From NCBI GenBank assembly GCA_946544235.1, contig CAMNMC010000098.1, positions 1 through 36,073 on the forward strand: 36,073 nt of DNA, in the 5' to 3' direction. The DNA is from an uncultured Lachnospiraceae bacterium (lineage in GTDB: Bacteria > Bacillota > Clostridia > Lachnospirales > Lachnospiraceae). The position numbers and the translations under genes are program-made. Under the pieces are notes generated by a model. The model did no database searches and had not been told where the DNA came from. It saw only the letters and a program-made list of their open reading frames with translations. Below are positions 14,142 through 16,456 of the stretch, one piece after another. Each line of letters begins with the position of its first letter. The first letter of the stretch is position 1.

Positions 14142-14170
14142 CTGACAAAACAGCGTGTTTGTGTTATAAT
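14142..14170 (+). promoter_or_regulatory. Near-consensus promoter of the tRNA-like RNA
   Basis: CTGACA and a perfect TATAAT are separated by 17 bases. The predicted start is near 14177, just before the closing stem of the tRNA-like RNA. Confidence 0.8.
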
Positions 14171-14176
14171 TATTAT

Positions 14177-14306
14177 GTTGCCGGCAGCTATATATATTTA
14201 CTTCTTCAGGTCACGATGGTGGTCGCGGGTTCGAGTCCCGTCAGCCTGTTTCAGGCTGTAGCTCAGCAGGTTAGAGCACCATGAATAATGTGTCGATGTC
14301 GCCGGT
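14177..14306 (+). ncRNA. Circularly permuted tRNA-like RNA, YrlA/Y-RNA-like
   Basis: The sequence reads as a tRNA with its 3' half first. Variable loop TGGTC (14220-14224) leads into a T arm (GCGGG-TTCGAGT-CCCGT). The acceptor strand CAGCCTG (14242-14248), a TTT loop and the acceptor strand CAGGCTG (14252-14258) follow, then TA and a D arm (GCTC-AGCAGGTTA-GAGC). CACCAT (14277-14282) pairs with ATGGTG (14216-14221) at the anticodon-stem position, so the ends leave there. Positions used for the tRNA tertiary fold are all conserved: U8-A14, G15-C48, G18G19 with U55C56, and A58. A 5' GGUC-A-CGAUGGU resembles the Ro60-binding strand of Y RNAs. GCCGGC (14180-14185) can pair with GCCGGT (14301-14306). 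It cannot be charged because the acceptor end is closed. The fold is seen directly; the Y RNA relation is from family knowledge. Confidence 0.8.
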
Positions 14307-14413
14307 CCTTTACATGCACAGCTATTGTCACTTACTTCCGAGGGATTTAAACAGCCACTGGCTGTATATTGTAGTAGCGGCAAGATATTTAGTGTTAAAG
14401 AAAGGGGAAGAGT

Positions 14414-16456
14414 ATGAAGAGTATTTACGCAGATTATCTTTTTGACAAGTACATATTTGTTTCAAATGGCGAAACAGGAACTGATCAGTTTGAAACACTG
14501 TTTGCTCTGGCGAATCTCTTCAATATCAGGATTATTGAAGGTGAGAAGCTGGTCTCAGGGGATATGATTAAATATGCAGCTTCCCGTCTGGGGCAGAATG
14601 TTCCTGAACCTTTTTACAGAGGATTCCCGCAGTCTGTAAGGGAATTATCGCCTGACAAGCTTCTGTTTGATCAGCTTGTTCATTATACGATTACCTATGG
14701 TTTTGGCAATTTCTCTGAAGCAGGGCATTCACTCTTTGAGGAAAACTTTGAGAGAACTGCATTTAAGGAGAATGCGGACATCAGGGAGTTCAGGATCATA
14801 ACTGAAGAAGAGGCGGTATACGCGCTGGCGGAGATTGTAAATGATCTTCTTGCGGGGACCAGACCTCTCAGTGAAGGCCAGTATAATCTGGTTAAAGAAT
14901 ATATTACCGATCACGGTTTCATGCCTGAAAGCATTGCATCCAAGAATACGGCTGTGAAGCTTCTTATGGATACGAGAAAGCCTGAATTTGCCGATTTTAT
15001 TATGATGTCTGATGTGATAAAGCTGGTTGATGAGATCAATTATAATCTTTATCAAAGTGAGAATATCAAAAAGCTTAACCTGAAGAATCAGGACAGAAAG
15101 TTCATCACAAATGTTATGAACAGGCTTTTTGAAGCAGGCAGGGTTGATATAAGAAGCTGTTTTGAAAAGAAAAAAATATGGAGCGGACTGCTTCATCATA
15201 TTCATTATACCTCTGGTTCCGATGTGGCAAAGCAGTTTGTCGATGCCATGAGAGGGAAGGAAAACCGGTCGGTTTATTCAGAGTTTGAAAGAGCCATGGC
15301 TGAGAAGAATATTACCGATGCAGTGGATAAACTGAAAGCCGGCAAGGGTTCGGCAGCGGTTCTGAGAAATCTGAACTACCTTATCAGCAGATGCGAAAAC
15401 GTTCAGGATATGGAATATGTCATAAACAGCATCGACAGTGATAATGTGATCGTTCTTCTTCAGCTACTGCTCAGCTATTCGCAGTATAAGCAGGGTAATG
15501 AACCACGAACCTTCAAATTTACAAAATATAATATGATGAAGGTACATCCGGAAACCGAAGAAGAGCAAAAGAAGAGAAAGTCTGTTATTACAGTTGGACA
15601 GGCAAACATGCTTGCTGCTAAGATAAAGGAAAAGCTTGTACCGACTCTGAGGAATCGACTCGGAAAGGTTTATATAGATCCTGATATGACCAGTTATGCG
15701 CTGCCGCTTCAGGAAACTGCAACGCAGGGCGGAATAGGAGTCCTTACAAAAGGTTCAAGGCTAAAACTTCCTGAAACAAAGAAGCTTCGTGCATTCACTT
15801 ATTGGGAAAAGGCAGATGATATCGATCTTTCTGTATTCGGAATAGATGAAGACGGCTTGAGGCGTGAGTTCTCATGGAGAACCATGAGCGGAAATCAGTC
15901 AGAGGCTATAACCTATTCGGGTGATGAAACCAGTGGCTATAATGGAGGCTCGGAGTATTTCGACATAGATCTTGATAAAGTAAGAGAACTCTATCCGAAT
16001 ATGCGATATATGATCTTTTGCGATAATGTATTTTCAGGGCTCAACTTTGATGAATGCTTCTGCAAGGCGGGTTATATGACGAGAGACCTTATTGATTCAG
16101 GTGAAGTGTATGAACCGAAAACCGTGAAGTCATCGTTTATTATCAATTGCGGCAGCAGATTTGCATATCTGTTCGGTCTGGACCTTAAGTCCAATGAATT
16201 TGTCTGGCTCAATTTTGCCGTGAACAGCAGGGCAAATGTTGCCGGAACGACGAATATGGATTTTGTGCTGGATTACTTCGGTATTACGAATATCATAAAT
16301 GTATATTCATTCTTTGAAATGATGGCTGAAGAGGTTGTTTCGGACATTGCTGAGGCTGAGATAATCGTGACGAATAAGAATGTCGAATGCGCCGAAGGAC
16401 AGACGGTTGTCAGAGAATATGATATCGAGAAGATGATGGCTTACATGAATATGTAG
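14414..16456 (+). CDS. TerD-domain protein with helical, possibly TROVE-like N-terminal region
   Basis: This is a soluble 680-residue protein. Residues about 440-625 match the TerD fold: VLTKGSRLKL, DIDLSVFGIDEDG (469-481), the calcium-site-like TYSGDETSGYNGG (500-512) and FDIDLDKV. Residues 1-435 are mostly alpha-helical. Parts resemble the end of the Ro60 TROVE domain: KIWSGLL, VLRNLNYLI (317-325), LLLSYSQYKQG and then GKVYIDPDMTSYAL, where Ro60 has its metal-binding DxSxS motif. This similarity is by eye and weak. No signal peptide or membrane segment is seen. A GGGGAAG ribosome binding site precedes the ATG. The tRNA-like RNA lies about 110 bases upstream with no terminator between, so it may be processed from this gene's leader. 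A role as a protein partner of that RNA is inferred. Confidence 0.65.
   Translation: MKSIYADYLFDKYIFVSNGETGTDQFETLFALANLFNIRIIEGEKLVSGDMIKYAASRLGQNVPEPFYRGFPQSVRELSPDKLLFDQLVHYTITYGFGNFSEAGHSLFEENFERTAFKENADIREFRIITEEEAVYALAEIVNDLLAGTRPLSEGQYNLVKEYITDHGFMPESIASKNTAVKLLMDTRKPEFADFIMMSDVIKLVDEINYNLYQSENIKKLNLKNQDRKFITNVMNRLFEAGRVDIRSCFEKKKIWSGLLHHIHYTSGSDVAKQFVDAMRGKENRSVYSEFERAMAEKNITDAVDKLKAGKGSAAVLRNLNYLISRCENVQDMEYVINSIDSDNVIVLLQLLLSYSQYKQGNEPRTFKFTKYNMMKVHPETEEEQKKRKSVITVGQANMLAAKIKEKLVPTLRNRLGKVYIDPDMTSYALPLQETATQGGIGVLTKGSRLKLPETKKLRAFTYWEKADDIDLSVFGIDEDGLRREFSWRTMSGNQSEAITYSGDETSGYNGGSEYFDIDLDKVRELYPNMRYMIFCDNVFSGLNFDECFCKAGYMTRDLIDSGEVYEPKTVKSSFIINCGSRFAYLFGLDLKSNEFVWLNFAVNSRANVAGTTNMDFVLDYFGITNIINVYSFFEMMAEEVVSDIAEAEIIVTNKNVECAEGQTVVREYDIEKMMAYMNM

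Follow-up and report, generated by a model that had tools for sequence, protein, structure and literature searches.

Why would a small RNA that contains an inside-out tRNA lie directly in front of a gene for a TerD-type protein? TerD is known for tellurite resistance and phage exclusion. The arrangement occurs in a contig of an uncultured Lachnospiraceae bacterium (GenBank assembly GCA_946544235.1, contig CAMNMC010000098.1, positions 1 to 36,073 of the forward strand), and we refer to this whole stretch of 36,073 nucleotides as the window. A sequence-only reading had recognized a permuted tRNA mimic of the YrlA type here and had named the TerD gene as its neighbor. YrlA is described in PMC8394870 as an RNA that mimics tRNA and has D, T and acceptor arms, and that paper and PMC7790460 present bacterial Y RNAs as Ro60 partners. 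We asked what kind of RNA this is and which protein is its likely partner.

Results

A structured RNA with a permuted tRNA

Positions 14179-14307 of the forward strand are a real structured small RNA with an inside-out tRNA (unit 1). Its plan is a two-part outer stem with an internal loop (AGCUA/GAUGUC), then UUACUUC, and then a T arm, a closed acceptor and a D arm; the core comprises 14179-14198 and 14287-14307. All features given here and below lie on the forward strand. The outer stem GCCGGC/GCCGGU (14180-14185 and 14301-14306) was read from the sequence. The 5' internal loop AGCUA (14186-14190) is supported by the recurrence of GCUA at this position in flanking units (see below), and the upper stem is followed by UUACUUC (14198-14204), of which the form UU(A/C)CUU recurs in 12 of 16 modules found by their T and D arms alone. 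On the 3' side, core analysis assigns 14287-14307 to the upper strand, the internal loop GAUGUC and the lower strand. A junction stem, AUGGU (14216-14220) with ACCAU (14278-14282), was assigned from covariation in a four-pair register. Inside it are the T arm (14225-14241; stem GCGGG/CCCGU, loop UUCGAGU), which is supported by relatives as well as by the sequence, the closed acceptor CAGCCUG-UUU-CAGGCUG (14242-14258; seven pairs, UUU loop), a UA linker, and the D arm (14261-14277; stem GCUC/GAGC), with the same two lines of support as the T arm. The bases C48, A14, G15, G18G19, U54 U55 C56 and A58 occupy their tRNA positions. The sequence-only reading is confirmed as an observation. Its proposal that GGUC-A-CGAUGGU is a Ro60-binding strand is not supported: AUGGU is one side of the junction stem, and the CGAAU found in the stems of two Ro60-linked RNAs (L073 and L074) is missing from the Y stem of the window.

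A sigma-70-type promoter, as judged by consensus match, lies at 14142-14170 (CTGACA, a spacer of 17, TATAAT, and TG ahead of the -10 box). It matches the consensus at 11 of 12 positions, in keeping with the strong promoter reported earlier just upstream, and the stretch holds 2 such sites compared with 1.0 in shuffles. Transcription would be predicted to start near 14177.

The fold energy of unit 1 is -43.4 kcal/mol (z = -1.92), and 10 of 200 shuffled sequences were equally low, so energy alone lends the fold weak support. What sets unit 1 beyond chance is covariation among relatives together with a match to the Rfam YrlA model (RF02553; 47.3 bits, E = 1.2e-9 in 401 bases). The Rfam search proposed with the sequence-only reading thus did return YrlA, at a score under the gathering score of 69. 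That reading had covered unit 1 and had missed both the arrays found in relatives and a second unit in the window, unit 2 (14313-14396), a short form without a D arm. Unit 2 scores 28.2 bits (E = 8.7e-4) against our model R1, which was built with unit 2 included.

The TerD-type protein and its homologues

The gene at 14414-16456 encodes a protein of 680 amino acids, a distant relative of the MXAN_6230/SCO0854 family. The match to NCBIfam NF041916 covers residues 283-607 (E = 1.1e-24) at 86.7 bits, compared with a cut-off of 600 for this RING family; a Streptomyces member that is so annotated also carries a unit (L066). Neither Pfam nor PADLOC identified a domain in the window protein. An AlphaFold model built with a 17-sequence alignment (pLDDT 78.9, pTM 0.53; single-sequence pLDDT 34.2) is mostly helical over residues ~1-415 and beta-rich and TerD-like over ~420-640. 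A profile search of the PDB gave four matches, with a weak one between the C-terminal part and TerD (2KXT, E = 0.013) the only one of note. The "TerD" label of the sequence-only reading is supported by this weak profile match for one part of the protein, and the significance of the neighbor was understated. A Foldseek search with the full model found phage proteins, including a viral "putative tellurium resistant like protein" (E = 1.5e-39). Against the PDB, Foldseek gave 660 matches at E up to 10 and none at 0.001; the 50 matches listed of these 660 include Pumilio and helical toroids, and neither Ro60 nor TerD is among them.

We collected relatives through the neighboring protein because the Rfam YrlA model is unspecific and responds to tRNA arrays: 7 of 14 control genomes gave a match, and so did a tRNA array in the window's own genome. 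One genome scan with the 680-residue protein yielded 10 loci. Homologues were found in 9 of 299 sampled genomes of the family, including one decayed copy and two distant relatives, and the MXAN_6230/SCO0854 placement led to copies in two genomes of the same phylum (G364 and G403), both perhaps Paenibacillus-like. Protein alignment added 12 IMG/VR loci. One distant member led to 10 phage and 31 plasmid records, 10 of which (of 41) were examined.

Comparison with YrlA RNAs and Ro60 loci

The window RNA shows the same order of parts as YrlA, namely outer stem, junction stem, T arm, closed acceptor and D arm. It differs from YrlA in its company, in that TerD-linked units form arrays in which most units have no tRNA module, and in its stem motifs. 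TerD-linked stems mostly read GCUA where the Ro60-linked L073 and L074 read GACGAAUGC. These two RNAs contain GNCGAAUG, which we take to be the Ro60-type motif of the Y-stem 5' strand. CGAA(U/G) was missing from the Y stem in all 16 TerD-linked modules, and GCUA was present there in 15 of them. However, the motifs do not separate the two groups cleanly, since two further Ro60-linked RNAs, L071 and L072, have neither CGAAU nor GCUA and do have UUACUUC. For the same reason, the TerD-linked and Ro60-linked groups are probably related, and the clearest difference between them is the protein partner. No YrlA match at the gathering score was found in 17 relative loci. The threshold also misses Ro60-linked RNAs, as L071 and L072 score 39.9 and 39.8 bits.

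The loci resemble the Ro60/Rsr-Y RNA RNP and the rsr-yrl-rtcBA operon in that Y-type RNAs adjoin the gene of one protein, and RtcB, RtcR or WYL genes lie near some TerD-type copies. RtcB adjoins the gene or lies a few genes off in 4 of 21 mapped loci (its identity was taken from Pfam for L035), and the window gene has no RtcB nearby. An rtcR gene lies four genes from the Variovorax copy (L065). A WYL gene is found near the copy in L036 (over the cut-off) and probably L039 (under the cut-off). Of the Ro60 loci used for comparison, two have rtcR and rtcB, and two have a WYL gene together with a YrlA match. As a side observation, RtcB and the TerD-type gene are accompanied in L036 (7534-9818) and L039 (6097-8449) by two related proteins, and one member of the L036 pair has a WYL domain over the cut-off.

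Could the partner be Ro60 after all? The window RNA might be an ordinary YrlA that serves an undetected Ro60, or the TerD-type protein might itself be a very diverged Ro60. Among the alternatives this one survives best, and we consider it unlikely. It would account for the similarity to YrlA and for the UUACUUC that L071 and L072 also have after the upper stem, and the mostly helical N-terminal part of the protein would suit HEAT repeats. Yet TROVE was detected in none of the 299 family genomes and gave no hit in 17 of 19 protein-bearing genomes, some of these genomes being incomplete; none was found in the window's own genome, which is 82% complete. Pfam found no TROVE or Ro60 similarity in the window protein, and a profile comparison with one TROVE protein gave a probability of 0.5%. 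The C-terminal part is TerD-like, whereas the two Ro60 proteins that we scanned match vWA_Ro60 (one of them under its cut-off). The RNA would work like a Y RNA; because our tests for a TROVE protein came back negative, we did not class the proposed TerD-linked RNP as a Ro60 RNP. The two protein-bearing genomes with TROVE are G364 and G403, from which L071 and L072 come and in which TROVE lies at another place than the TerD-type genes.

Linkage of the units to the TerD-type gene

A general scan for a motif and two stems found at least one unit in 37 of 40 loci (two of them doubtful), so that the TerD neighbor is not incidental. The scan left out three duplicates (L004, L048 and L052) and one locus with a decayed gene (L040). 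Its motif was learned on 30 of the 40 loci, and the flanks of the other 10 had been read ahead of the final scan. The doubtful loci, L010 and L011, owe their positive count to probably spurious hits at 633-661 bases upstream, while visible units nearer the start codon fell under the scan threshold. L005, L037 and L041 were missed, yet units were identified there by other analyses. Same-strand flanks held 81 units in 54 kb (1.50 per kb), some of which may be chance hits with long loops, such as that of L064 at -526; the opposite strand held 3 (0.056 per kb), and 14 and 28 units were found elsewhere in 251 kb. The last 10 loci, which were chosen by protein similarity, were all positive, with 21 units and none on the opposite strand. 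Carrier loci span Bacillota, Actinomycetota, Pseudomonadota, Deinococcota and phages. In one faecal phage locus (L061, 710-1611), the units and the gene are directly preceded by a match to tmRNA (94.2 bits) and by several tRNAs.

We also surveyed the 299 family genomes with R1, an RNA model of the unit cores. It matched three genomes, all protein carriers with units in R1, and gave no match in the 290 non-carriers; with 20 candidates scored per genome, it missed the other six of the nine protein-bearing genomes, that of the window included. On the window's own genome, where 150 of 553 candidates were scored, R1 likewise gave no match, the window units included, so that further copies may exist there. 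The survey therefore speaks for specificity only, as the units of the matched genomes are in the model and six carriers were missed. The sole new match is L060 (G294:C19:11857-11915), a lone unit just behind a TATAAT box. It is flanked by two unrelated genes, metabolic by eye, and the protein gene lies on the same contig about 87 kb away.

The last unit often lies directly 5' of the start codon (at 18 bases in the window, L005 and L006), as would be expected if the units were leaders acting in cis on the gene that follows, for instance by tRNA-like or riboswitch-like control of translation. We regard this as improbable. The units lie 3' of the gene in ten loci (L039, L041, L054, L055, L056, L062, L064, L065, L067 and L069), L060 stands alone with its own promoter-like box, and arrays consist of several units that differ in sequence and share one plan. 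Given L060 and the ten loci with downstream units, we take the units to be RNA genes and not leaders only.

Covariation of the Y stem and the tRNA module

In its first half, the common plan of the units has a lower stem, a 5' internal loop (often AGCUA or GGCUAU) and an upper stem of about seven pairs; in its second half, UUACUU(C/U) or UUCCUUCU, a variable loop, the upper strand, a 3' loop and the lower strand. Alignment A4 comprises 39 of 41 UUACUU-type units, omitting one duplicate and one unit with a 9-base upper strand. These units were found by a search that demanded GCTA and T(T/C)(A/C)CTT, and the invariance of GCUA and UUACUU in A4 is thus by construction. Among the 39 cores, 88.6% of cells are paired compared with 54.1% after shuffling, and the covariation score is 0.919 compared with 0.251 shuffled and 0.12-0.17 in slid registers; the shuffling control leans towards structure, because the cores were picked by motif and best pairing. 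As partners had been chosen by pairing, we ran a further control in which 5' strands were swapped between units. For the UUACUU type, the mean was 29.2 for the own partner and 17.8 (sd 3.4) for swaps, with the own partner beating all swaps in 25 of 40 units; for other units it was 27.7 compared with 17.8 (sd 3.9), with 19 of 25 beating all swaps. The two window units are among the weaker ones, as 3 of 39 and 6 of 38 swaps equal or exceed the own partner. When GCUA was not required, a scan still recovered it at the loop position in 51 of the 60 same-strand flank units from the first 30 loci. It was seen in 0 of 55 control hits, which lay on the other strand, within the gene or elsewhere; the last 10 loci, however, have it in only 2 of their 21 units. 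GCUA is hence the mark of one large group and not of the whole.

The tRNA module is present in 15 units, the window included, or 16 with L062. Alignments A6 and A8 were divided manually into stems, with the acceptor and D loops excluded; A8 omits L012 (degenerate) and L055 (D arm broken) and adds L062. Across 15 sequences, 99.2% of module positions are paired, with covariation of 0.745 compared with 0.187. The acceptor pairs at every position in all 15 sequences, and each of its seven pairs changes on both sides somewhere. The junction stem shows covariation of 0.794 compared with 0.257 in 14 sequences with the register fixed after inspection; with a free register the result is not convincing (10.5 compared with 9.2, sd 2.05; in 1 of 16 units the own partner was best). 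Covariation was seen in the three stems where the sequence-only reading had proposed to look for compensatory changes (acceptor, junction and outer), and the refutation tests set by that reading did not refute it; its permuted mimic of YrlA type is both conserved and covarying in relatives. Judged from these alignments, the permuted tRNA module is demonstrably under selection. A chance juxtaposition of two decayed tRNA genes, which the sequence-only reading had already doubted, has a vanishing probability: the sequence is tRNA-like and tRNA arrays occur near some phage copies, but order, closed acceptor and compensatory changes are kept in 15 modules from bacteria and phage contigs, the modules sit inside a similar outer stem, and we excluded decayed halves because of the complete acceptor pairing and its two-sided changes.

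Two modules have unusual acceptor loops. In a phage unit, L045 (2835-2960), the loop contains ACCA, as if a permuted tRNA had kept its 3' CCA, and in L037 (480-588) it has an insertion of about 55-60 bases.

Discussion

We conclude, with a probability of roughly 0.75, that unit 1 is a Y RNA of the YrlA kind with its own likely promoter, and that its partner is the downstream TerD-type protein and not Ro60. Stem and loop motifs are conserved, stems covary, and the units are linked to the gene on the same strand across phyla and phages. By analogy with the Y-RNA RNP, we infer that the TerD-type protein would stand in Ro60's place, in binding as in function. The helical/TerD protein may bind each unit at its internal loop and along its UUACUUC side, in the way that Ro60 binds the Y stem. 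A partner that reads tRNA, such as an exonuclease (for instance PNPase), the RtcB ligase or a tRNA enzyme, could be tethered by the tRNA-like module, and the particle might then sort, decay or repair damaged tRNA. Units that lack the tRNA module may occupy or gate the protein, and phage copies may counter host nucleases that cut tRNA.

On balance, we lean towards a broader reading, in which these loci would represent a second widespread lineage of Y-RNA-like RNPs, found in at least four bacterial phyla and in large phages, whose scaffold is the helical/TerD protein and whose RNAs are often tandem, consist of a two-part stem followed by UU(A/C)CUU(C/U), carry a permuted tRNA in some cases and read GCUA in the loop in the Bacillota-side group. 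A non-Ro scaffold with a tRNA-like RNA may have a precedent: in 2016, Burroughs and Aravind reportedly described a Band-7/SPFH scaffold with a tRNA-like RNA in RNA-repair loci, a system which is built on a different protein from the TerD type. Here, a Y-type RNA is linked, across phyla and in phages, to a protein family that looks unrelated to Ro60. If our reading is right, the tether that mimics tRNA has been combined with more than one scaffold, TerD is tied to tRNA damage and repair, and there is a concrete lead on the role of many "TerD family" and "MXAN_6230/SCO0854 RING" proteins. Our literature search found no paper joining TerD with Y RNA and YrlA, none joining the TROVE domain with TerD and none naming MXAN_6230 or SCO0854; for TerD together with RtcB it found PMC7824862 alone.

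Some copies of the protein gene are interrupted. In L040 (G092, contig C278), the gene is fragmented and two unrelated ORFs, perhaps a transposon, lie between the pieces; both upstream RNA units look intact despite this. In three phage contigs, L050 (3001-5066), L051 and L053, the frame breaks off near residues 343-363, after the helical part and ahead of the TerD-like one. L050 has a second, overlapping ORF for the TerD-like part, and two genes or a frameshift may be the cause.
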